From contig JAPKZY010000096.1 in assembly GCA_026393535.1 (NCBI GenBank), forward strand, positions 1-64,000: a DNA stretch of 64,000 nucleotides, given 5' to 3'. Shown piece by piece: positions 7,845-22,233 of the stretch (positions are counted from its first letter, which is position 1; the number at the start of each line of letters is the position of its first letter). Made by a program: the position numbers and the translations under genes. Under the pieces are notes generated by a model, which saw only the letters and a program-made list of their open reading frames with translations, ran no database searches and was not told the origin of the DNA. The stretch is from Actinomycetota bacterium. Its GTDB lineage: Bacteria; Actinomycetota; Acidimicrobiia; Acidimicrobiales; Ilumatobacteraceae.

Positions 7845-8723
7845 TTAGTGTTGTTGTAGAAACGTTCCTTCAAGTTGATCGAGATGATCTCGGTCAAGTT
7901 GCCACAACTGGGCGAATGACTCAATTCCTTGCGTTGCGGTATTGCCGCGAAGACTAGACAACCCAAGCAAGGCTCGAGCTGCAGTGGGAAGTGTTTGTGC
8001 AATTTCTAAAGGAATAGCAAGTGGTACTGCTTCTTCTGGCGTCAACCACCCCAACAAGAACCCGATGTACAACGCCTTGCGAACTCGGTCAGAACTTGTG
8101 TTAGCGCCACCGCCATGAGCAAGACTGCCCAAGTAAATTAGTGCGTCGCCCGGCTTCATTTCTACGGGTTGCGCGCATGATGCATCAATAGGGCTGTTGT
8201 ATCCGTCGCGGTGGCTACTCGGCACCACCATGGTTGCACCGACTTCTGCGTCATAATCACCCAAGGCAACGAGCGCAGACATTTGAAGATCTATTCCTTG
8301 TTTTGCGGCAAACGACCAGTTGATGTCATCACGATGCAGCGCCTGAGCTGGGTTACCGGGCGCGATGTAAATAGTTTCAGCTTGACTCATCCAATAATTA
8401 CCGCAGTTAGGCAAAAGAATTTCATCGGCTATACCGAGCAGAATCTCATTGAGAAGAATTGAATCAACGAACTGACGACTCTTCGCTGCAAGTCCTTGAA
8501 TACGAACTGTCTTTCGACCATAAAATTCATCGTCCCCGGCGTCTTCCCGAAACCCAGGAGACCGACGCTCAACGTGAGGCTGTAGTTGATCATGCAGTGT
8601 GCGAGTTTCGTTCGGTGTCAATAATCCTTCGACGACAACTCCACCGTCGCGGTGCACAATTTTTGCTAATTCACTGACCGATGTATTTTTCGGGCAACGA
8701 GATAATGATTGAGAGGAGAACAC
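7845..8723 (-). CDS. Phytanoyl-CoA dioxygenase (PhyH) family protein
   Basis: Fe(II)/2-oxoglutarate-dependent oxygenase of 292 residues. The 2-His-1-Asp iron triad is visible as His130-x-Asp132 (in ALHRDD) and His203 (in GSLAHGGG), with Arg214 placed to bind the 2-oxoglutarate carboxylate. PhyH proteins hydroxylate diverse small substrates including fatty acyl-CoAs; the substrate here is unknown. The start is uncertain: GTG 8723 gives full length but has no clear ribosome-binding site, and an internal GTG about 22 codons later is possible. Its end is 3 bp from that of the convergent Ddn-like gene. Confidence 0.85.
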   Translation of the reverse strand: MFSSQSLSRCPKNTSVSELAKIVHRDGGVVVEGLLTPNETRTLHDQLQPHVERRSPGFREDAGDDEFYGRKTVRIQGLAAKSRQFVDSILLNEILLGIADEILLPNCGNYWMSQAETIYIAPGNPAQALHRDDINWSFAAKQGIDLQMSALVALGDYDAEVGATMVVPSSHRDGYNSPIDASCAQPVEMKPGDALIYLGSLAHGGGANTSSDRVRKALYIGFLLGWLTPEEAVPLAIPLEIAQTLPTAARALLGLSSLRGNTATQGIESFAQLWQLDRDHLDQLEGTFLQQH

Positions 8724-11784: not shown

Positions 11785-12420
11785 GTGACGACTGTGTGGC
11801 TCCGGCCAACTGAAAATGGTGGCCAACGTTGCTGGTGGCCAGGCGATGATGATCAATACATCGAGTATCACGACACCGAATGGGGTCGACCTGTCGCTGA
11901 TGACACTCGGCTTTTCGAAAAACTTTGCCTCGAAGGATTTCAAGCTGGATTGTCGTGGTTGACCATCTTGCGCAAACGCGAAAACTTCCGCACGGCATTT
12001 AATGCCTTCGACATGGATGAGGTTGCTCGATTCTCAGAGCGTGATATCAATCGTCTGTTGGAAGATGCAGGAATTGTTCGGCACCGCGGAAAAATTGAAG
12101 CGACCATCAATAATGCAGGTCGTGCACTGGACCTGATTGATGAAACTGGTTCGCTGTCGGAGTACATCTGGAACTTTGCACCAGACGTACCTTTTGGTCG
12201 TGATGGTAAGTCACTGCATGCGTCTGGCGTTGCTTCCATATCGCCATCAGCTACAGCACTGTCAAAAGATTTGAAAAAACGTGGATGGAAATTTGTTGGC
12301 CCCACCACTGTGTATTCATTCATGCAGTCGATGGGATTAGTGAATGATCATGTCGATGGATGTCATGTTCGCAGTGCATGTGAGGATGCACGACAATCAG
12401 CTATCGCTGCGCGAAAATAA
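11785..12420 (+). CDS. tag: DNA-3-methyladenine glycosylase I (Tag)
   Basis: Base-excision repair enzyme that removes 3-methyladenine from alkylated DNA; 211 residues. It aligns throughout with the E. coli enzyme: zinc ligands Cys16 and His29 near the N-terminus and His/Cys in NDHVDGC near the C-terminus, the LEGFQAGLSW helix (Glu50) and RHRGKI. A GTG start at 11785 gives the full-length protein, although no strong ribosome-binding site precedes it. Divergent from the DHA2 exporter. Its stop abuts the convergent HEAT-repeat gene. Confidence 0.95.
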   Translation: MTTVWLRPTENGGQRCWWPGDDDQYIEYHDTEWGRPVADDTRLFEKLCLEGFQAGLSWLTILRKRENFRTAFNAFDMDEVARFSERDINRLLEDAGIVRHRGKIEATINNAGRALDLIDETGSLSEYIWNFAPDVPFGRDGKSLHASGVASISPSATALSKDLKKRGWKFVGPTTVYSFMQSMGLVNDHVDGCHVRSACEDARQSAIAARK

Positions 12421-13011
12421 CTAACTACGGGGATTGAGTAAATCTTCTGCGTTCTGGCGCACTTGCCAGTCTTTGTCTTCAAGCGCGAGTTGTAATGCAG
12501 CGTCAACTTCTTCACCTTCGAATGGGGCAAGCGCCAAGATGGCGCGTCTACGTACAGCAGGTTTATCCGAGCATGCCGCAAGAATTGCAGGCAGTCCGCG
12601 TGCATCACCGAGTGAACCAAGTGCAGCCGCACATGCTTCGCGCACCACAGCCTCAGTGTGTGATGTCGTGCGATCAATGAGAGTTTCGATTTCAATGTCG
12701 CTTGCGGGCATGCGTTCACCCACGCACCATGCAGACATCTCTGCCACGAACACATCTGGGTCATCGATGCACTGATGAACATTGACCGAAGGAAACGGAA
12801 CCGCTAATTCAACAGCCGTACGTCTGGTTTCGATGTGTGAATCCTGAATATATGGAGCAAGAATTTCAGCAGTCAATGTTCCGATGCGTGCAAGAGCACG
12901 CAATGCACTGGCGCGAACAGTGCCATCCTCATGGTGCAATGCCTCGAGAGCTACTGAGGAATCCCCAGAGAATCCGGCTGCTATGACATCAAATCGAAAA
13001 TTATCTGACAT
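12421..13011 (-). CDS. HEAT-repeat domain protein
   Basis: 196-residue protein built from about five alpha-helical HEAT/PBS-lyase-type repeats; recurring units such as DGTVRASALRALARIG, DSHIETRRTAVELA, EAVVREACAAALGSLGD and DWQVRQNAEDLL are visible. Proteins of this kind are protein-protein interaction scaffolds; no catalytic residues are present. It lies 6 bp downstream of the small membrane-protein gene (13018-13335) in the same direction, so the two may form an operon. Specific role unknown. Confidence 0.8.
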   Translation of the reverse strand: MSDNFRFDVIAAGFSGDSSVALEALHHEDGTVRASALRALARIGTLTAEILAPYIQDSHIETRRTAVELAVPFPSVNVHQCIDDPDVFVAEMSAWCVGERMPASDIEIETLIDRTTSHTEAVVREACAAALGSLGDARGLPAILAACSDKPAVRRRAILALAPFEGEEVDAALQLALEDKDWQVRQNAEDLLNPRS

Positions 13012-13017
13012 AGCGGA

Positions 13018-13335
13018 TTAGGCCCGAAGGAGCCCACCCACAAATTCAAATGCAATGGTGAATAAGAAACCAAGGATGCAGGCAATAAGGGCACCGAGGA
13101 CGATTGCACCGCCAGAAAGGCTTGCGAGGGTCTTCCATTTTTGATCGCGTTCTGGTTCGGCATAGAGAGGGGTGGGTTTATTGTCAACCCGCACCACCGC
13201 GGTACGTCGCGGCGTGGCAGGCTTCATACGGTCAATAAACGCAAGCGCAACCAAGGCCAGGGCAACAACCCACACAGCGCGGGCACCAGCACCGGTAGCG
13301 GTAATGGCAAAGAAGGATGATGAAAGGATTGACAT
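13018..13335 (-). CDS. Small two-helix membrane protein, unknown function
   Basis: About 105 residues with two hydrophobic helices: one near the N-terminus (ending VVALALVALAFI) and one at the C-terminus (ALIACILGFLFTIAFEF), separated by a basic, proline-containing loop. I do not recognise a family. The start is uncertain: ATGs at 13335 and 13341 lie next to the ATG of the divergent PDZ-Lon gene (13340), so regulatory sequence for one must overlap the other. Probably in an operon with the HEAT-repeat gene. Confidence 0.6.
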   Translation of the reverse strand: MSILSSSFFAITATGAGARAVWVVALALVALAFIDRMKPATPRRTAVVRVDNKPTPLYAEPERDQKWKTLASLSGGAIVLGALIACILGFLFTIAFEFVGGLLRA

Positions 13336-13339
13336 ACTC

Positions 13340-14491
13340 ATGAACAACACGATTGTACCGCCAGTCCCACCACGACGTCCCGCACCATTGCGTGGGCTGG
13401 GATACGCCCTGCCATTAATTACTCTCTCGTGGATTGTGTTGTTCGGCATTATTGCAATGGCAGCTGTGCGGATTCAACGTTTTGAACTGGCACCTGGCGA
13501 AGCAATGGCCGTGGCACCACGCATTGAGTTTGCAAAATCCTCGACAGGGACAAAAGTTCCGGAACGATTCCGCACGACGAACGGAATCAAATTTGTCACT
13601 GCATTTGGTGGTCAATTATCCATTCTCGACAGTGTTCTGGGCTGGATTGACCCACATGTGCAAGTGGATACGTACAAGGAACATTTCGGAACAAGTACGC
13701 CAAGCACTTCACGACGTCTTGGATTTCAAGCAATGATCGGTGCAAAACAAATTGCTGAATACGTTGCGATGAAGAGACTAGGACTCGACGTAAAACTTGT
13801 GATGGGTCGAGTAGTTATTGAAGAACTGGTCTGCGACGGTGCGCCCAAGAAAAATGCTGCATGTACAAATCTTGAAGTAGGGGAAACCATTACTCACTTA
13901 GATGGTGTCGCGACATCTACATTGACTGAACTTGCGGCGCAGATGAAGGGGCATGTTGTCGGCGACACAGTGGAACTCACAGTGATTCCGTATGACGCAA
14001 AGGCAGCAACTCCGGATGCAACAAAGGCTGAGAAGCGCACCGTGCAGTTAATGGCAAACGCTGATAATCCCACTCGTCCAATTATCGGCTTCGTTCCAGC
14101 AGATACTCGCAAGGTGTCGTTGCCGTTTGACGTGAAAATTTCAACTACAGATATTGGCGGACCATCTGCGGGTCTTGCCTTCACGTTGGCGCTGCTTGAC
14201 GAACTAACAAGCGGCAATCTGATGGGCGAATCTCATGTGGTTGCGACCGGAACAATCAGCGAAGATGGCTCTGTTGGGGCGATCGGTGCTCTCGAACAAA
14301 AGGCTGTGGCGGTCGAGGCATCGGGCGCTGACCTCTTCCTCGTTCCAGCTGGTCAATCTGTAGATGAGATGAAGCGAGCTCGTCAGGCGGCCGGTTTAAA
14401 AGTCAAAATTGTGCAAGTTGCAACTCTGAATGAAGCGTTGGCAGTGTTACGTACTAACGGCGGCGATGCTTTGAGCGCAACCACTGCCTAG
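13340..14491 (+). CDS. Membrane-anchored PDZ - Lon (S16) domain protease
   Basis: 383-residue protein of the YlbL-like group. An N-terminal membrane anchor (about residues 25-50) is followed by an extracytoplasmic region, a PDZ domain (about 175-235, including VGETITHLDG) and a C-terminal Lon-type proteolytic domain. The catalytic Ser is in GGPSAGL and the catalytic Lys in EQKAVA, forming the Ser-Lys dyad; there is no AAA+ ATPase domain. ATG 13340 follows GAAAGGA at a long spacing. Predicted to process envelope proteins; the target is unknown. Confidence 0.9.
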   Translation: MNNTIVPPVPPRRPAPLRGLGYALPLITLSWIVLFGIIAMAAVRIQRFELAPGEAMAVAPRIEFAKSSTGTKVPERFRTTNGIKFVTAFGGQLSILDSVLGWIDPHVQVDTYKEHFGTSTPSTSRRLGFQAMIGAKQIAEYVAMKRLGLDVKLVMGRVVIEELVCDGAPKKNAACTNLEVGETITHLDGVATSTLTELAAQMKGHVVGDTVELTVIPYDAKAATPDATKAEKRTVQLMANADNPTRPIIGFVPADTRKVSLPFDVKISTTDIGGPSAGLAFTLALLDELTSGNLMGESHVVATGTISEDGSVGAIGALEQKAVAVEASGADLFLVPAGQSVDEMKRARQAAGLKVKIVQVATLNEALAVLRTNGGDALSATTA

Positions 14492-14548
14492 GTGGGCTGT
14501 GGATAATGCCACCAAATGGCACCCTAGGAGTCGTACTGTAGATGCCTA

Positions 14549-16474
14549 ATGGCTATCTCTTTCTCCCGACCCGACCCATCATCGCCTGCAGCAGTGGGTT
14601 CGGCTGCGTTTCCCACCGGTCGCCGTGGGTTCGACCAGGCTGAAGTACGTGATTTTCTCAAAATGGTGGCTGCTGAGATGGCTCGCCTGCAAGAACGCGA
14701 ACGCTTCCTTGAAAGTGAAATGCGCGCCATGCAAACACGGGGCTTATCGGCTCCTGGGCGCCTCGATGAAGAGACTGTCACCACGTTGCTTGGTGAAGAA
14801 GCAGCACGGGTTCTGACAGCTGCTCGTGATGCGAGTACACAAATTCGTGACCGCGCTGAAGAGTCCGCAACTCGCCTTGTCAAGGACGCCGCAGAAGATG
14901 CAGTTCGTATTCGTGAATCTGCAGTCTTAGAAGCAGCTCGCATTCGTCAAGACTCAGGCTCAGACGCCGAATCTGAAATTGAAATGGCAAAGCAACAAGG
15001 CCGTGACATGGTTAATGAGGCACGTGAGTATCGCGAAAAAGTCTTGTCAGAATTGTCCCGTCGTCGTGATGCTGCTCGCTCACAAATTGAACAGCTTCTT
15101 CATGGCCGCGACCGTCTTATGAATGCGTTCGAACGTGCGCGTATTGCCAGCGAAGATGTCATCGGCGGACTCACTGATGCTCATGATGAGCCTGAATTCA
15201 TTGTGGATTTGTCGCCTACTACTGGTCCTGTGCCAATCATCAATTCTGAACATCCTTCGGTAAAAGTGTTTGACCGTGAAGAAGTAATCGTTGAAGAAGA
15301 GGCAGCAGAAGTTGTTACCAATGTTGTTATTTTTGATCATGAAACTGAAGCAGAAGTAGAATTTATTGCAGAAGAAGTCAGCGTCGAAGTAGTTGATGAA
15401 ACTCAGATTGTTGACGTTCTTCACCCAGTGCACACACCTGCTGATATCGCTACATCAGTAGAGGACATTGCTTCTACAGAACAAACCGAAACATCTCAGA
15501 CCAATGTGGTGTCATTATTCGGTCGCGGTCGACGCTCAGTCGACATGCCTGAAATTGAAATTGAACCTGAAATCGCAGAAGTAGAGACTGCGAAATTGCT
15601 AGAAGTAGTTGTTGCTCCGACTCCGAAGAAAGATGTTGCTGCTGTCGACGATATTTTTGCAAAGTTGCGTGCGGGTAGCACTGCCGATGTCGCTGCGAAA
15701 GCAACAACCGCGTCTGAGATCACGAAAGACGAAAAGCTTGCTGTGAAAGCTTCTGCGCCAAAAGCGGAGAAAAAGGCGAAAGTCAAGTCCACTGTTCCAG
15801 TTGTAGACCCAGCACGATTCGAAGAGCGCAATGAAGAACTGTCACTGGTAGTGGTAGCCATGGCTCGAAAGTTGAAGCGGGTCCTTGCTGACGAACAAAA
15901 CACTGTTCTTGGCCATGTTCGTGCAAAGCGCAGTTCGTTGGATATCGATGCAGTGCTCGGAACTGAAGCCGAACATAGCGCTCGGTATGCGGTAGCCGTC
16001 GTAGAAGACACCATGGCGGCCGCAAGTGCTGGCGCGAAGTCTGTGAAAGCTGCTGGTGGTTCAAGTCGTCGTGTTACACAAAAGGCCATTGCTTCTCACG
16101 CTGTCTCAGCAATTACTGCAGGTTTGGTCGCAGGGTTCCGTGAAGATGCCCGTATCGCAATTGGTGAAGCCGAAGGCGATCATGATGTCTTACTTGGGCT
16201 CATCCGTGACGTGTATCGCAGCTGGAAGACAGAACGAATCGATTCCCATGTCGACGACATTGCCTGTTCGTCATACAGCCATGGTGCGTATCTTGCTTTA
16301 GAGCCAGGTAGCCGCATCACCTGGATGGCCGAGCCAGATACCAATTGCTGCAGTGAATGTGAAGACAATTCGCTCGGTGGCTCCGTTGTTCGTGGCGATG
16401 ATTTCCCCACAGGTCACAGTCATCCACCTGCTCATGCAGGCTGCCGATGCCTTGTTTGCCCCGTTCAGGACTAG
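14549..16474 (+). CDS. DivIVA-domain protein with phage-head-morphogenesis-like C-terminus
   Basis: 641-residue multidomain protein. Residues ~10-60 contain a DivIVA-type lipid-binding start (FPTGRRGFDQAEVRDFL), followed by a coiled coil to about 200. A long, Glu/Val-rich low-complexity linker (about 220-410) follows, then a helical region. The last ~50 residues have W-x5-D followed by two CxxC-type cysteines (NCCSECED) and end in HPPAHAGCRC. That spacing resembles the C-terminal motif of phage Mu F / SPP1 gp7 minor head proteins. DivIVA proteins mark cell poles and septa. The combination is unusual (see findings). It lies 57 bp after the PDZ-Lon gene and 11 bp before the UPF0182 gene. Confidence 0.75.
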   Translation: MAISFSRPDPSSPAAVGSAAFPTGRRGFDQAEVRDFLKMVAAEMARLQERERFLESEMRAMQTRGLSAPGRLDEETVTTLLGEEAARVLTAARDASTQIRDRAEESATRLVKDAAEDAVRIRESAVLEAARIRQDSGSDAESEIEMAKQQGRDMVNEAREYREKVLSELSRRRDAARSQIEQLLHGRDRLMNAFERARIASEDVIGGLTDAHDEPEFIVDLSPTTGPVPIINSEHPSVKVFDREEVIVEEEAAEVVTNVVIFDHETEAEVEFIAEEVSVEVVDETQIVDVLHPVHTPADIATSVEDIASTEQTETSQTNVVSLFGRGRRSVDMPEIEIEPEIAEVETAKLLEVVVAPTPKKDVAAVDDIFAKLRAGSTADVAAKATTASEITKDEKLAVKASAPKAEKKAKVKSTVPVVDPARFEERNEELSLVVVAMARKLKRVLADEQNTVLGHVRAKRSSLDIDAVLGTEAEHSARYAVAVVEDTMAAASAGAKSVKAAGGSSRRVTQKAIASHAVSAITAGLVAGFREDARIAIGEAEGDHDVLLGLIRDVYRSWKTERIDSHVDDIACSSYSHGAYLALEPGSRITWMAEPDTNCCSECEDNSLGGSVVRGDDFPTGHSHPPAHAGCRCLVCPVQD

Positions 16475-16485
16475 CGTCCTGATGC

Positions 16486-19401
16486 GTGCGTAACTCTTCA
16501 GACCTTCCTGGCGGCCCTACTGGCCCTGTATTCCGACTTCCTAACTTTGGTAAGCCCTCTCGTGGCCGAATTGTGGTCTCAGTTGTAGTTGGACTCTTCT
16601 TGCTCCTTGTGTTCAGCGCAAAGGCGATGTCGTCGTTCTATGTGAATGTGTTGTGGTTTAACAGTGTTGGTCGCAGCGATGTGTACTGGGCAGTTTTACG
16701 CAGCAAGGCGGAACTTGTTGGTGTGTTTACAGTGGGTTGTTTTCTGTTCTTGTGGGTCAACCTTCTTATTGCAGATCGCCTCGCTCCACTGACTCTGCCG
16801 AATACACCAGAAGATCAGACCATCATCCGTATCCGTGAATTGACGGCAAAAAGTCGCGGCAAATTGCGAATCGCGTTAGCTGTACTTATTGGCATCATGC
16901 TTGGATTACCTGCGTCGAGCCAATGGCAAGAGTGGACTATGTTCCGCAATCGTCAAGCTTTTGCGGTCGGGGACCCGTTGTTCAAAGCAAATGTTGGTTT
17001 CTATGTCTTCCGTCTACCTTTCGCACAATTTGTAGTGTCATGGGCTTTTGGCGCACTTGTTCTTGTCACAATCATCACCACGGCATTCCATTTCATCAAC
17101 GGCAGTATTCGCCCGCAAGATCGCGTGCAACGCGTGACATCGCAAGCCAAAGTTCATTTGTCGGTGCTTCTTGCCATTGGAACTCTTCTGCGCGCTGCTG
17201 ATTATTGGTTGTCGAAATACCAATTGACATCGTCGACTCGAAGTGTTGTACGCGGTGCGTTATACACGGATGTGAATGCCCAATTGCCGGCATTGAACTT
17301 GATGGTCTTGGTGTCACTTGCTGTAACAGCATTGTTGTTGTGGAATATTCGTCAGAAGGGTTGGCGCTTGCCCGTTCTCGCAATCGGTCTATGGATCGTT
17401 GTTGCATTGGCTGTCGGAACGGTGTATCCAGCAATCATTCAACGATTCGTTGTTCAGCCAAACGTAAGTACACGAGAGTTGCCGTTTATTCAGCGCAACA
17501 TTATTGCCACAAAGTCAGCAATGGGAATCTCTGATGTGACGCGCCAAGACACAACCTTTAGTGATATTAGTGCCACTGATGTCACCACTAACGATGCGGC
17601 TCTTCGAGATGTACGCCAACTTGACCCTACGCAAATGCTTGATCGTTTTGCTCTGGACCAAGGACTCAAATCGTTCTACACAGTCAACGACCTTGATGTT
17701 GACCGTTACTCAATTGATGGTCGCGTGCAGCAAGTGCTTGTCGCAGCTCGTGAACTTAACCTTGCTGGTGTTCCAAACCGTACGTGGGTTTCTCGCCATC
17801 TCTTGTACACACACGGTTGTGGTGTCATTGCTGCTCCGGCAAGTCTTGCAACAGAAGATGGTCGCCCTTCATACATTGATTTGAAAGTCACTAAGCCACA
17901 GATTTACTTCGGAGATCGTCTCGGCGAATATGCAGTTGTCAAGACTTCCCAAAAAGAGCAGGCATGTCCAAGTGGCACAGAGACCTCTTTTGTGGGAAAT
18001 GGCGGAATTAAGTTCAACAGCTTTGTTCGGCGTGTTGCCCTTGCAGTGAATTTTGGGGAGTTCAACCTTTTCGGTTCAAGCCTCATTACGAAAGATTCTC
18101 AAATTCTTTTGCAACGCGATGTGCGTTCACGCGTAGCAAAGATTGCGCCATTCCTGCACCTTGATGCTGACCCATATGCAGTTGTCGTTGATGGTCAAGT
18201 GAAATGGGTCGTTGATGCTTTCACCACGACAAATCGCTACCCATATGCGGAGACTGCAAATGTTTCGCAACTCACTACTGGTAGTGGGCTAAACCATTCG
18301 TTTAACTATGTGCGCAACAGCGTCAAAGCGGTAGTCGATGCGTATACAGGCAACGTGACTCTGTATCTAATGGATTCAAAAGATCCGATTGCTCTCATGT
18401 GGAACGCTGCATTTCCGGACTTGTTCGCAAAGAAGTCAACTGTTCCTGCTGAATTGTCAGCGCACTTCCGATACCCAGAAGATTTGTTCCGCGTGCAGAC
18501 AAATATGTTTGGCCGTTACCAATTTGATGATGCAACATTGTTCTTCAACCGTGATGCGGCCTGGAGCATTGCTCAGGCTCCTGCCAATGCACCAGAAACG
18601 GGTGGCTCTGGCGGACTTCTTGGATCCTCTGCTACCGGTATTGACCCGGTTGATTCCATTAATGCCAATGATTCATCTGTTCAACGTTTCAGCCCGTACT
18701 TTTCTATCTTCCACGAACCAAATGCGAAGACAGACATTGGTCAATTTTCAATGGTCCGCCCGTTCGTTCCCTTCTCCGCTGATGACAGCCGTAAAGAATT
18801 GCGGTCGTTGATGGTCGTATCAAGCGAGCCAAAGACGTACGGAAAAATTACGGTGTATGACATCAAGGCGCCACTGCCTGCTGGGCCTGCCACGGTGTCT
18901 GCTCAATTTGAAAGCGAACCAGCGATCTCGCAAGCAATTACTCCGCTCGACCAGCGTGGTTCGCGTGTTACATACGGTGACTTGCAACTGGTGCCGGTGG
19001 GGAAGGGTCTCGTCTACATTCGCCCGATGTTCGTACAGCCTGACGGCAATGACAAACAGGTATTTGTTCGAAAGATTCTTGCTGGGTATGGCGACAGATC
19101 AGTCGTTGGTGACAGTTTGACCAGTGTGATTTCTCAGTTGTTCCCCGGATTCAATGTGAATCTCGGTGATCGTGTTGGTGGTTCATCAAGTACACCAACG
19201 ACCACAATTGCAGGAAGTCCAGTCACGGTTGCTCCGACAACTGGTACAACGCCAGCAGAGTTGTTGCGACAAGCAGAAGCATTGTTTGCACAAGCTGATG
19301 CTGCATTGGCAAAATCTCCACCAGATTTTGCTACATATCAAACCAAGTTGTCTCAGGCACGTGGCTTGGTTCAGCAGGCTTTAGCCGCAGTCAAGGGCTA
19401 G
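16486..19401 (+). CDS. UPF0182 family large membrane protein
   Basis: 971-residue protein of the UPF0182 (COG1615) family, characteristic of actinobacteria and cyanobacteria. About seven hydrophobic segments fill residues ~25-330, then a large extracytoplasmic domain follows with family landmarks (VNPNVSTREL-like region, PFIQRNI, TRQDTTF, YTVNDLDVDRY). A Thr/Ser-rich linker (about 895-920) precedes a helical, Ala/Gln-rich C-terminal tail. Molecular function is unknown for the whole family. A GTG start 11 bp after the DivIVA-type gene implies co-transcription. Confidence 0.9.
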   Translation: MRNSSDLPGGPTGPVFRLPNFGKPSRGRIVVSVVVGLFLLLVFSAKAMSSFYVNVLWFNSVGRSDVYWAVLRSKAELVGVFTVGCFLFLWVNLLIADRLAPLTLPNTPEDQTIIRIRELTAKSRGKLRIALAVLIGIMLGLPASSQWQEWTMFRNRQAFAVGDPLFKANVGFYVFRLPFAQFVVSWAFGALVLVTIITTAFHFINGSIRPQDRVQRVTSQAKVHLSVLLAIGTLLRAADYWLSKYQLTSSTRSVVRGALYTDVNAQLPALNLMVLVSLAVTALLLWNIRQKGWRLPVLAIGLWIVVALAVGTVYPAIIQRFVVQPNVSTRELPFIQRNIIATKSAMGISDVTRQDTTFSDISATDVTTNDAALRDVRQLDPTQMLDRFALDQGLKSFYTVNDLDVDRYSIDGRVQQVLVAARELNLAGVPNRTWVSRHLLYTHGCGVIAAPASLATEDGRPSYIDLKVTKPQIYFGDRLGEYAVVKTSQKEQACPSGTETSFVGNGGIKFNSFVRRVALAVNFGEFNLFGSSLITKDSQILLQRDVRSRVAKIAPFLHLDADPYAVVVDGQVKWVVDAFTTTNRYPYAETANVSQLTTGSGLNHSFNYVRNSVKAVVDAYTGNVTLYLMDSKDPIALMWNAAFPDLFAKKSTVPAELSAHFRYPEDLFRVQTNMFGRYQFDDATLFFNRDAAWSIAQAPANAPETGGSGGLLGSSATGIDPVDSINANDSSVQRFSPYFSIFHEPNAKTDIGQFSMVRPFVPFSADDSRKELRSLMVVSSEPKTYGKITVYDIKAPLPAGPATVSAQFESEPAISQAITPLDQRGSRVTYGDLQLVPVGKGLVYIRPMFVQPDGNDKQVFVRKILAGYGDRSVVGDSLTSVISQLFPGFNVNLGDRVGGSSSTPTTTIAGSPVTVAPTTGTTPAELLRQAEALFAQADAALAKSPPDFATYQTKLSQARGLVQQALAAVKG

Positions 19402-19402
19402 T

Positions 19403-19807
19403 TCAGGCGCGTTGGCGCTGTAACAATTTGTTCGCAAGTGCCGCAAGATCTTGTCGGAATGTAATTTCATACCGAGCTTGTTCGTTTGCAAGACGTACTT
19501 GTGTTGTCTTAAGAGCGTCCATCATTTCGGCGACTCCAGAGTCTTCTGCACGCTTTGAGAGCTCTTCAATTTCCGTACCAAGTTCGTGTAATTGACGTGA
19601 TAACTCTGAGCCCATGCCCGATACTCGCGCTTCAATTCCTGCAAGTCGATCCACTGTGGAGCGTGTAGCTTCCCGTTCAGCTTCTAATGCGGCCATCGAA
19701 TCGCTCATTTCAGCCCGCAAAGAAGCAATTTCTGCTTGCAGTGCCTCTACGGCCAGTTGGGTCTTTTTGTTTCGGGCAAGCATGGTGATTGCACTAATCC
19801 TAAGCAT
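19403..19807 (-). CDS. Coiled-coil protein, unknown function
   Basis: About 134 residues dominated by heptad-like repeats rich in Glu, Ala and Leu (from QLAVEALQAEIASLRAEM to IEELSKRAED): a long coiled coil with a basic C-terminus (LLQRQRA). The open frame extends to 19900, but that would run antisense through the initiator tRNA, so the ATG at 19807 (or 19783) is a better start. Convergent with the UPF0182 gene, 1 bp apart. No family recognised; a structural or adaptor role is possible. Confidence 0.6.
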   Translation of the reverse strand: MLRISAITMLARNKKTQLAVEALQAEIASLRAEMSDSMAALEAEREATRSTVDRLAGIEARVSGMGSELSRQLHELGTEIEELSKRAEDSGVAEMMDALKTTQVRLANEQARYEITFRQDLAALANKLLQRQRA

Positions 19808-19863
19808 TTCGGGTGAAGTTGTGAGTGAGGCACTCGCCTTGTACCGTAATGCTTCAACTACAT

Positions 19864-19937
<74 letters not shown>

Positions 19938-19953
19938 CTAATAAAAAAAGTCT

Positions 19954-19987
19954 AAAATCCCAGCCTCTCCACAGAGGTTGGGATTTT
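19954..19987 (+). terminator. Intrinsic terminator after tRNA-fMet
   Basis: A 15-bp stem (AAAATCCCAGCCTCT paired with AGAGGTTGGGATTTT, one G:T pair) closes a 4-nt CCAC loop and is followed by a T-rich run (ggttttct). An A-rich tract precedes it, so it could act in both directions. Confidence 0.85.
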
Positions 19988-20008
19988 GGTTTTCTAGGGG
20001 TCTGTGAC

Positions 20009-20040
20009 ATGTGGCAGCCTCGTCCGCTTCGGTGCCACAT
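20009..20040. repeat. Inverted repeat upstream of the thiolase-like gene
   Basis: Perfect 8-bp arms ATGTGGCA (20009-20016) and TGCCACAT (20033-20040) with a 16-nt loop. There is no T tract, so a terminator is unlikely. It could be an operator or an mRNA hairpin. Confidence 0.4.
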
Positions 20041-20056
20041 TCGCGTGCCTGTTCTA

Positions 20057-20069
20057 ATGGAACTTCCAT
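20057..20069. promoter_or_regulatory. 13-bp palindrome, putative operator of the thiolase-like operon
   Basis: ATGGAA-C-TTCCAT is a perfect palindrome 27 bp before the ATG at 20097, a position suited to repression. No local regulator gene is adjacent. Inferred. Confidence 0.4.
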
Positions 20070-20096
20070 GTCGACCAGAGTGCAGAGCAGATAACG

Positions 20097-21254
20097 ATGA
20101 CTATTCGAGGAGCGGCCTATGTTGCCGGCATTTACGAACACCCCCGTCGCGACATTCCAGATCGCACACTGTTTGAGATTCATACAGAAGTTGCACTTGG
20201 TGCTTTGGCTGATGCCGGCTTAGCGATGAGCGATGTTGATGCCGTGTTCTGTGATGGCACAGCTGGTTTCGGACCAATGTCGTTGGTGGAACATTTTGGT
20301 TTACGCCCGAGCTACTTCGACAGCACTGAAACAGGAGGCTCGTCGTATCTTGCACATGTCGGTCATGCAGCTGCAGCTATCGCTGCCGGCAAGTGCTCTG
20401 TTGCGTTGATTACGTTGGCCGGAAAACCCCGCACAGGTCGTCACGAGGTGTCCTTTGCCTCAGGATCAGACGCAGGGTTTGAATCGGGTTGGGGAATTGC
20501 TGGCGCGCCACACACATACGCGCTCGCCGCACAACGCCACATGTACGAATTTGGCACTACATCTGCGCAGTTAGCCGAAATCAAGGTCGCTGCAAGCATT
20601 CACGCCCAGTACAACCCGAATGCGTATTTGCCATACGCCGTCACCGTTGAAGATGTGTTGAATTCGCCATTAGTAGCTGACCCGCTACATCGCCTCGACT
20701 GTTGTGTTGTTACCGATGGCGGCGGAGCCTTGATTGTGGTGTCTCCTGAAGTTGCGCGTTCACTCAATCGCACGTCGGCAAAAATTCTTGGTCACGGTGA
20801 AGCAATCAAGCACACAAACAATGGTGGTATTGATCTCACCTACACCGGCGCCGTGTGGTCTGGACCACGTGCGTTCGCCGAAGCAGGGGTCAGTGTTGCC
20901 GACATTAAATACGCGTCAATCTATGACAGTTTCACAATCACTGTTTTGCAAACAATTGAAGACCTTGGATTTTGTGAAAAAGGACAAGGCGGAAAATTCG
21001 TTATGGATGGCGGACTCGTTGCGCCATTCGGGAAATTGCCGTTCAATACTGACGGTGGTGGATTGTGCAATAACCACCCATCAAACCGTGGCGGAATCAC
21101 CAAGGTGATTGAAGCAGTGCGCCAGATGCGTGGTGAGGCACACCCTGCAGTACAAGTGCCGAACTGCCAGATATCACTTGCTCATGGAACGGGCGGAAGT
21201 CTTGGTTCGAAGCATGGCTCAGTCACACTCATTCTTGGACAAGAGGACGCATGA
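20097..21254 (+). CDS. Thiolase-like protein (SCP-x / Ltp2-type) lacking the catalytic Cys
   Basis: 385-residue thiolase-fold protein. The position of the acyl-accepting Cys in true thiolases is taken by Ser in TGGSSYLAHV (about residues 79-88), and the C-terminal Cys loop reads AHGTGGSLGSKHG. The GHP-type loop is present as GGGLCNNHP. This matches the lipid-transfer-protein/thiolase branch that, with a DUF35 partner, forms steroid side-chain aldolases (Ltp2-ChsH2 type) instead of condensing acyl-CoAs. Here the next gene is exactly such a DUF35 protein, overlapping by ATGA. A C-C lyase acting on an acyl-CoA is inferred; the substrate is not known. Confidence 0.85.
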   Translation: MTIRGAAYVAGIYEHPRRDIPDRTLFEIHTEVALGALADAGLAMSDVDAVFCDGTAGFGPMSLVEHFGLRPSYFDSTETGGSSYLAHVGHAAAAIAAGKCSVALITLAGKPRTGRHEVSFASGSDAGFESGWGIAGAPHTYALAAQRHMYEFGTTSAQLAEIKVAASIHAQYNPNAYLPYAVTVEDVLNSPLVADPLHRLDCCVVTDGGGALIVVSPEVARSLNRTSAKILGHGEAIKHTNNGGIDLTYTGAVWSGPRAFAEAGVSVADIKYASIYDSFTITVLQTIEDLGFCEKGQGGKFVMDGGLVAPFGKLPFNTDGGGLCNNHPSNRGGITKVIEAVRQMRGEAHPAVQVPNCQISLAHGTGGSLGSKHGSVTLILGQEDA

Positions 21255-21661
21255 CCATGTTGCCAGCACCCGCACCTGTTATTAACTCGACCACTGCTGA
21301 ATTTTGGAAAGCCACTACAGAGGGACGATTCATATTGCAGCGCTGTGATGCGTGCGACATTGTTTTGTGGTTCCCACGTCGCAACTGTCCGAAGTGCTGG
21401 ACAGAAAATGTGTCCACATTTGATGCGCAGCAAACGGGCACTATTTATAGTTTCACTGTTGTGCGCAAGGGGACCGGAGCATTCAAGGATGCCGGCCCAT
21501 TTGTTATCGCCTATGTGGAACTTGCTGATGGCCCACGCATTATGACCAACATTGTTGATTGTGACATTGATGCATTACATATAGGAATGCCCGTAGAGAT
21601 GGTGTTTCACGACACTGGTGAAGGAAGTGCTTTGTATCGCTTCCGACCTGCTTCTCGTTAG
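21251..21661 (+). CDS. DUF35 OB-fold / zinc-ribbon acyl-CoA-associated protein
   Basis: 136-residue partner protein. A rubredoxin-like zinc ribbon is formed by Cys32, Cys35, Cys46 and Cys49, followed by an OB-fold DUF35 domain (TGTIYSFTVVRKG and the downstream strands). In characterised systems this protein binds and supports the thiolase-like subunit. It overlaps the upstream thiolase-like gene by 4 bp (21251-21254), arguing for a stoichiometric complex. Its end overlaps the convergent methyltransferase by 4 bp. Confidence 0.9.
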   Translation: MTMLPAPAPVINSTTAEFWKATTEGRFILQRCDACDIVLWFPRRNCPKCWTENVSTFDAQQTGTIYSFTVVRKGTGAFKDAGPFVIAYVELADGPRIMTNIVDCDIDALHIGMPVEMVFHDTGEGSALYRFRPASR

Positions 21662-22233
21662 CGGCACGCCTCTAACTCATACATCGGGGTGCCTTGTAGT
21701 GGCACCCATAACCCAGCACCCACTTGACGGAAATGTTGCGAGAGGTGTTTGCGGTACCACTGCGCCGAACGGTGGTATACCTGCAGATCTGTTCCAGATT
21801 TATCGATGATGTTTTCGTAGTCCCACTTGGTGGGAAGCTCGAGATACATCACATGTCGCGTTGCCGCCGCGAGGTTATCGATTGCTTGAACAACTGACTG
21901 ATTGTCAAGGTATTGCAACACGCTATGACACACAACAAGATCAGATTTTTCGCGAGGGCGCCAAGTGCCTATGTCTCGTTGCTCATGATTCCACGTATTG
22001 CACGCGTGTTCGCTGACATCAATTGAACGCACGGTGACTTCAGGAAACTTTGTGTGATACCAATCGCGCCACATTCCCATACCGGCACCTACATCAAGAA
22101 CGGAAGTGATGTTGATGCCCCACCATGCCGCAAGGTGGTGAACTGCTGTGGCAAGGTGCGCGATCTTCTCAGCGTCGTGCGCACCGTTATCGCCGTAAAA
22201 ACGTTTGTAATACGCAATATCGAATTTCAGCAT
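21658..22233 (-). CDS. Class I SAM-dependent methyltransferase
   Basis: 191-residue methyltransferase. The SAM-binding motif I is VLDVGAGMG (about residues 41-49), followed by the acidic loop (SIDVSEHA) and a DLVVCHSVLQYL stretch typical of UbiE/type-11 enzymes. The substrate cannot be inferred. The gene lies 9 bp downstream of the RlmA-like gene in the same direction, so they may be co-transcribed. Confidence 0.82.
   Translation of the reverse strand: MLKFDIAYYKRFYGDNGAHDAEKIAHLATAVHHLAAWWGINITSVLDVGAGMGMWRDWYHTKFPEVTVRSIDVSEHACNTWNHEQRDIGTWRPREKSDLVVCHSVLQYLDNQSVVQAIDNLAAATRHVMYLELPTKWDYENIIDKSGTDLQVYHRSAQWYRKHLSQHFRQVGAGLWVPLQGTPMYELEACR

Follow-up and report, generated by a model that had tools for sequence, protein, structure and literature searches.

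Few structural parts of phages are known to have been tamed by cells: encapsulins, tailocins, type VI secretion and gene transfer agents. Among the MuF proteins of phages, gp7 of SPP1 binds the portal protein gp6. Virions still assemble in its absence, and of these, only about 25% are infectious, as stated in a passage of PMC6316719. A survey that is cited here from an excerpt (PMC5576092) linked 96% of bacterial muf genes to prophages or prophage remnants. DivIVA proteins, including Wag31, carry an N-terminal membrane-binding head and a coiled coil, and actinobacteria may possess extra DivIVA-like proteins such as SepIVA, according to part of PMC11571769.

Here, we describe a gene that joins a DivIVA part to a MuF-like domain. 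It lies in a 64,000-nucleotide stretch of DNA, hereafter called the window, from a member of the Ilumatobacteraceae. Among the papers listed in searches of open-licence PMC literature, none described a DivIVA-MuF fusion, and a search for Ilumatobacter together with DivIVA gave no paper. Likewise, the available sections of a study of MuF and other phage fusions (PMC5512222) make no mention of DivIVA.

Results

Architecture of the fusion protein

The open reading frame singled out in the initial annotation proved to encode a protein of 641 residues (Table 1), and its start at MAISFS is kept in relatives. Pfam matches two families only in this protein, DivIVA (PF05103) and Phage_Mu_F (PF04233). 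The DivIVA N terminus with coiled coil that had been read from the translation was confirmed by both family models at their cut-offs: PF05103 scored 44.3 bits (cut-off, 28) over residues 17 to 123, and TIGR03544, which describes the DivIVA head, scored 26.4 bits (cut-off, 22) over residues 13 to 44. The head also aligned with Wag31 of PDB entry 6lfa at an E value of 0.009, and the Wag31 equivalog model NF050102 gave 37.7 bits, below its cut-off of 260. The full-length AlphaFold model, built with 50 sequences (mean pLDDT, 69.2), starts with the DivIVA head, which is followed by one helix (residues 74 to 211), a largely disordered linker (residues 212 to 420), and the same C-terminal domain that is obtained when this domain is modelled alone. 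The single helix is taken to be the DivIVA coiled coil and probably does coil.

Within the linker, the short motifs PTTGPVP, NVVSLFGR, and VDDIFAKLR are conserved in the alignment consensus of relatives, and an L-F-x-x-L-R-like pattern precedes the MuF-like domain in 108 of 130 carriers. Such motifs may be binding sites for further partners. Of note, a stretch similar to the L-F-x-x-L-R region is also found within a DivIVA without MuF (locus L358). The suggestion of a link to ADP-ribosyltransferases had to be dropped, since neither such a domain nor any other toxin domain was found in the protein with Pfam, NCBIfam, PHROGs, or PADLOC.

Table 1. Features of the DivIVA-MuF locus and its surroundings (positions in the window)
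Feature	Position	Strand	Extent or character	Basis or remark
HEAT-repeat protein, beside the protease	12421-13011	-		PF13646; weak PADLOC match to candidate defence family HEAT-ARM_XIII, E 2e-8
Protease with PDZ and Lon proteolytic domains	13172..14491	+	Listed GTG probably upstream of the true start	PF05362 above cut-off
DivIVA-MuF fusion gene	14549..16474	+	641 aa	Stop codon within coordinates
DivIVA membrane-binding head	14549..14746	+	Residues 1-66, F-x3-RRGFDQAEVRDFL	PF05103, TIGR03544, PDB 6lfa
Single long helix, taken as coiled coil	14768..15181	+	Residues 74-211	Full-length AlphaFold model
Linker	15182..15808	+	Residues 212-420, predicted disordered except helices 369-390	pLDDT mostly <50
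MuF-like domain	15809..16471	+	Residues 421-641; helical part (KR.L.DEQN motif) followed by a small tail of strands and loops	
Cys/His tail	16316..16456	+	Residues 590-636 (W..., CCSECEDN, FPTGHSHPPAHAGCRC)	PF04233 and TIGR01641 matches
UPF0182 protein	16486..19401	+	Start 12 bases past the fusion stop codon	PF03699, E 6.6e-232
tRNA-Met (CAT)	19864-19938	+		Sole tRNA hit of the window

Kinship between the C-terminal domain and phage MuF proteins

The C-terminal domain is related to the family of phage MuF, SPP1 gp7, and portal-MuF proteins, and the relation is significant both between profiles and in fold. PF04233 matched residues 590 to 636 with 20.7 bits when the whole protein was searched and with 26.5 bits (E 1.1e-5) when the last 83 residues were used, and TIGR01641 (SPP1 gp7) gave 22.1 bits with the whole protein and 26.2 bits (E 8e-6) with the last 221 residues; neither the curated gathering cut-off of 29.6 nor the TIGR01641 cut-off of 39.65 was reached. 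Because the curated PF04233 cut-off was tried and missed, the fusion is not a member of that family in the strict sense. With the last 221 residues, the top PHROG match was to the portal protein family phrog_2662 (E 1.5e-10), which covers domain residues 14 to 219 of 221 with its positions 488 to 708 of 717, that is, with the C-terminal end of the portal profile. The same PHROG was the commonest among the cellular domains (30 of 32 members; best E, 6.4e-14), and 18 of the 32 matched PF04233 at an E value of at most 1. When the 32 cellular domains were aligned as a profile with 15 phage MuF proteins from viral contigs, hhalign returned a probability of 99.5% and an E value of 6.7e-23 over 199 columns. 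Hence, the expected match of the C terminus to PF04233 held at the level of profiles and of predicted structures but not at the curated threshold.

The reversed domain and one shuffled copy served as negative controls and gave no MuF match, which, together with the conservation of the tail, rules out a chance motif. Neither the linker nor the helical part without the tail matched MuF when searched alone. Thus, the sequence homology rests mainly on the last 75 to 100 residues or so, and the helical part joins it only in the full alignment. A tblastn search of named phages with the window's own domain gave a best E value of only 0.1, so the relation to these phages is distant, and a viral scan with the MuF protein of the viral locus L184 found only that protein itself.

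The AlphaFold model of the 221-residue domain (78 aligned sequences) has a mean pLDDT of 91.8 and a pTM of 0.89 and shows helices up to residue 163, followed by a small strand-and-loop tail. Compared with the predicted viral structures of BFVD, it gave 44 matches at an E value of at most 1e-3, with TM-scores by query length of up to 0.76. Twenty-one of the matches carry a name; head, capsid, and portal proteins account for 19 of these, and the other two are a protein with a zeta-toxin domain and an uncharacterised protein. Sequence and fold searches of solved PDB structures with the domain gave no useful match; the VIA-align rows were generic helix bundles, which are no argument against a fold.

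The pattern noted earlier for the tail is indeed of the MuF type but reads W-x4-D rather than W-x5-D, and the first of its two close cysteine pairs is better described as the group CCSEC (C600, C601, and C604). Similarly, the CRC described as terminal is present but ends seven residues before the C terminus. The C-x-C tail occurs in 139 of 143 distinct domains, a figure that comprises a scripted tally of 134 and five further rows with CHC, CEC, CNC, or CGC; the remaining four (L053, L054, L055, and L252) lack the whole tail. Among the cellular copies, the first cysteine pair is variable (CCSEC, PCADA, or TADC), and the tryptophan, the asparagine after the first cysteines (DN), P-T-G or P-S-G, and nearly always H-x2-C-x-C are kept. 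A Thr-Glu pair that precedes the tail and is invariant in the 15 phage MuF proteins is absent from the cellular copies and aligns with Asp-Ile in the window.

Genomic setting

As first described, the gene sits between a PDZ-Lon protease and UPF0182, and this setting is conserved across loci. UPF0182 adjoins it downstream in 137 of the 138 loci with at least 700 bases on that side, and a Lon-PDZ gene lies upstream in 60 of the 77 loci with at least 900 bases there. Even in other classes, UPF0182 was found beside the gene in all 10 fetched loci with a confirmed match. The protease itself scored 25.6 bits for PF13180 (cut-off, 27) and 100.5 bits for the SepM family model NF041438 (cut-off, 200), in both cases below the threshold.

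The statement that phage genes are lacking nearby was upheld by a PHROG scan of 10 flanking proteins, in which only the Lon domain and a methyltransferase gave matches and no head or packaging family appeared. In other words, the gene context is not a phage head module but the conserved Lon-PDZ/UPF0182 setting. Synteny, class-wide presence, and the flanking genes together rule out a prophage remnant. A scan for promoters and terminators gave counts at chance level, and Rfam found nothing except a tRNA over positions 12000 to 22000.

We also inspected 20 stretches upstream of UPF0182 from noncarriers. In 10 of these, Lon directly adjoins UPF0182 (L359 to L363, L365, L367 to L369, and L374), and in two, a DivIVA without MuF occupies the same slot (L358 of G046 and L373 of G462); another seven were uninformative or had different genes in the slot. 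The translation of L375 (G361) contains what looks like a decayed MuF tail upstream of UPF0182. These three loci (L375, L358, and L373) are apparently decay products or earlier states of the locus. Given the four tail losses among 143 domains, the two loci with a MuF-less DivIVA, and the persistence of UPF0182 without the fusion, MuF is dispensable in some lineages.

Distribution

The window's own genome contains one copy of the MuF-like domain. A profile match was obtained in 56 of 61 genomes (26 of 30 genera) of close relatives. For the class, the figures are 188 of 247 for genomes and 123 of 143 for genera, so that conservation across the Acidimicrobiia, a check put forward in the initial annotation, is broad. 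In a sample of the phylum, 77 of 398 genomes matched, 12 of them outside the class, and two further actinobacterial classes gave matches in 10 of 34 and 6 of 19 genomes. One match outside the class (G498) is marginal: its locus L246 (E 3.5e-4) showed no MuF match on a repeat search and was left out of the carriers, as was G369, which was never fetched. These genome tallies are counts of profile matches alone, and 142 distinct carrier proteins were examined in fetched loci.

Twelve of the 142 carriers are cut at the N terminus, and 121 of the other 130 match a simple pattern for the DivIVA head. By eye, the nine misses comprise three variant heads (L243, L248, and L249), four sequences that look broken or start inside the gene (L022, L075, L167, and L170), and two without a head (L052 and L236). 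A scan of named genomes yielded 506 related loci, of which 80 were kept; their titles point mostly to Acidimicrobiia, Ilumatobacteraceae, and uncultured actinobacteria, with some acIV. Several loci, including L082, L084, L087, L128, and L130, are titled "Bifidobacterium breve"; these are metagenome bins with acIV-like loci and are probably mislabelled.

Canonical divIVA in the family

In the window's genome, which is reduced, PF05103 matches once, in the fusion gene. In a search of 34 genomes, six further members of the family (G001, G003, G021, G031, G036, and G129) likewise have one match each, and four members (G062, G087, G109, and G187) also encode a second, shorter DivIVA. G031 has its sole PF05103 match on one contig and its MuF match on another; the two probably belong to a single broken gene. 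In G062, the second DivIVA (304 residues) is encoded after sepF and before ileS, in a division cluster whose ftsZ, yggS, and ileS genes were named from their sequence. A search of 19 genomes with this protein found clear copies in G062, G079, G087, G109, and G187, and in the window's genome, it matched only the fusion (E 0.0014).

The corresponding division cluster of the window's genome, ftsZ-yggS-sepF-ileS, was located in L299 (G000:C83:76000-92000), with sepF recognized by PF04472. Its sepF-ileS junction (about 7851 to 8121) spans some 270 bases and contains no divIVA, unlike that of the relatives with larger genomes. As the genome is 94% complete, the absence of a canonical divIVA rests on this intact junction. 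Three other small genomes of the class, G065, G071 (about 1.1 Mb), and G201, show no PF05103 match at an E value of at most 0.01 and have kept UPF0182.

Inheritance and selection

Pairwise distances among MuF-like domains correlate with those of UPF0182 (rho, 0.79; 69 loci after thinning), the DivIVA part (0.83; 65 loci), and Lon (0.81; 52 loci), and in each case none of 999 permutations gave a correlation as high. A tree was built from 38 phage and 42 cellular domains. A branch with support of 100/99 sets the cellular domains apart from the phage domains, and on the cellular side, the class (99/97) and two outside groups (100/100 and 99/99) are resolved. The input comprised 58 viral loci, which gave 54 viral rows past a tail and length filter, and 43 cellular rows; these 97 were thinned to 80 at 75% identity. 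The tree is unrooted, and since the search patterns for the viral loci came from the cellular family, the phage sample is biased. The distance correlations and the cellular clade speak for vertical inheritance of the fusion. Transfer from phage to cell is the direction suggested by the wide spread of the domain in phages, and the best reading of these data is one ancient domestication of a phage MuF in the cellular lineage.

Compared with a 96%-identical copy in L083, the MuF-like domain has a dN of 0.026 and a dS of 0.60, and the DivIVA part has a dN of 0.008 and a dS of 0.52. The linker (dN, 0.103; dS, 0.67) has a dN above that of both ends, and the three parts rank alike by dN in other pairs. 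Both ends of the fusion are under purifying selection, and the dN/dS values rule out a passenger tail without function.

Discussion

It is very likely that the gene represents a domesticated MuF domain on a housekeeping DivIVA protein, and the MuF relation together with the nonprophage setting supports the initial proposal of a domesticated phage module. As to what this protein does, the best explanation overall, and one that we consider probable, is a polar or septal scaffold of the DivIVA type whose phage-derived MuF domain docks a partner. The DivIVA head would bind negatively curved membrane at the pole or septum, the coiled coil would oligomerise the fusion, and the flexible linker of about 200 residues might let the MuF domains reach their partners. 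Like its relative gp7, which binds the portal in SPP1, the MuF domain would serve to dock a partner, and the membrane protein UPF0182 is the most likely one, being the natural candidate because of its neighbouring position. We regard docking to UPF0182 specifically as a serious possibility that falls somewhat short of probable. Such docking could concentrate UPF0182, and perhaps the protease as well, where the envelope grows, and in genomes without the usual divIVA, such as the window's, the fusion may carry the general DivIVA function as well.

The window's PDZ-Lon protease is a putative equivalent of YlbL. In Bacillus, YlbL promotes recovery from a checkpoint that works by way of a division inhibitor, as described in an excerpt of PMC6051672. 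By analogy, this role may link the entire cluster to division or to growth of the envelope. Conceivably, a part of the phage portal vertex could have become a polar organiser of a bacterial class: MuF would have swapped the portal for UPF0182, DivIVA would place the pair at the pole and so position an envelope machine, and in genome-reduced freshwater lineages, the fusion would now stand in for the canonical DivIVA that was lost. Taken as a whole, this scenario is rather doubtful.

Other functions can be envisaged for the conserved tail. It might bind zinc or form disulfides in the cytoplasm and thereby tune DivIVA assembly as a redox or metal sensor, with docking being secondary. The tail (C..C, H, and C-x-C) is among the best kept parts of the domain, as illustrated by the nearly universal C-x-C. 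However, it is the first cysteine pair that varies while W, DN, P-T-G, and H-x2-C-x-C stay, and the same tail is found in phage MuF proteins, where it looks structural. We therefore judge a sensor unlikely. Alternatively, the MuF domain might tether the chromosome at the pole, either by binding DNA directly or through a segregation protein. This would fit the contact of actinobacterial DivIVA with ParA that is mentioned in part of PMC10714820, but Pfam, NCBIfam, and PHROGs revealed no DNA-binding or ParB-like family in the domain, which leaves a tether quite improbable.

A different possibility is that a membrane-anchored copy of MuF interferes with the assembly of infecting phages by binding their portal or head proteins, in the way that the gag relic Fv1 acts against retroviruses. 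Defence genes usually turn over fast, whereas this one is slow, vertically inherited, and kept at a fixed place, and PADLOC gave no match for the fusion. It is true that the partners of MuF are phage portals (PMC6316719, in the passage used here) and that a reference title in PMC9430571 refers to the inactivation of Wag31 (DivIVA) by a mycobacteriophage protein as a means against superinfection. Still, an antiphage decoy seems to us highly unlikely. Finally, the missed curated cut-offs and the lack of a match for the helical part could be invoked for convergence of an unrelated zinc knuckle on the MuF pattern, but such convergence is hardly credible in view of the hhalign alignment (199 columns; E 6.7e-23), the phrog_2662 match to nearly the whole domain (residues 14 to 219 of 221), and the viral fold matches with TM-scores of up to 0.76 by query length.

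A MuF-related domain that is an ordinary, single-copy, slowly evolving, class-wide gene product on a pole or division scaffold would be a new kind of domestication. UPF0182, a family with no functional study among the papers listed in our literature search, would gain a testable partner. Furthermore, the fusion offers a way to ask how bacteria without a canonical divIVA organise their poles.

How, then, does the fusion compare with known systems? With DivIVA/Wag31, it shares the N-terminal membrane-binding head and the coiled coil, but it lies between Lon-PDZ and UPF0182 rather than after sepF, is about twice as long as the 304-residue DivIVA of G062, and has a disordered linker and a MuF-like domain in addition. 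SepIVA and other extra actinobacterial DivIVA-like proteins (PMC11571769, in part) are comparable because the fusion, too, accompanies a canonical DivIVA in larger genomes, a likeness that for SepIVA is drawn from its description. With phage MuF/SPP1 gp7, the fusion has in common the tail (W, C..C, G..F..G, and PP-x-H-x2-C-x-C), the preceding helical domain, and an AlphaFold model that matches viral head proteins. It differs in lying outside any head module or prophage, in scoring below the cut-offs, in lacking the Thr-Glu pair, and in being joined to DivIVA; by comparison, the viral example L184 shows the order portal-MuF-protease-capsid, as judged from its ORF translations. Portal-MuF fusions, represented by phrog_2662 and by a protein of Arthrobacter phage Sonali that was found with a viral query and is annotated as "portal and MuF-like fusion," likewise carry MuF as the C-terminal module of a larger protein, but there the N-terminal partner is a portal and not DivIVA. 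The MuF polymorphic toxins (PMC5576092) also use MuF as a module in multidomain proteins; they have a C-terminal toxin attached, according to a passage of PMC6316719, whereas the fusion described here has neither a toxin nor a prophage around it. Hence, while DivIVA and MuF are both known families, we class as new their combination in a DivIVA with a domesticated MuF-like domain that is a conserved housekeeping protein.
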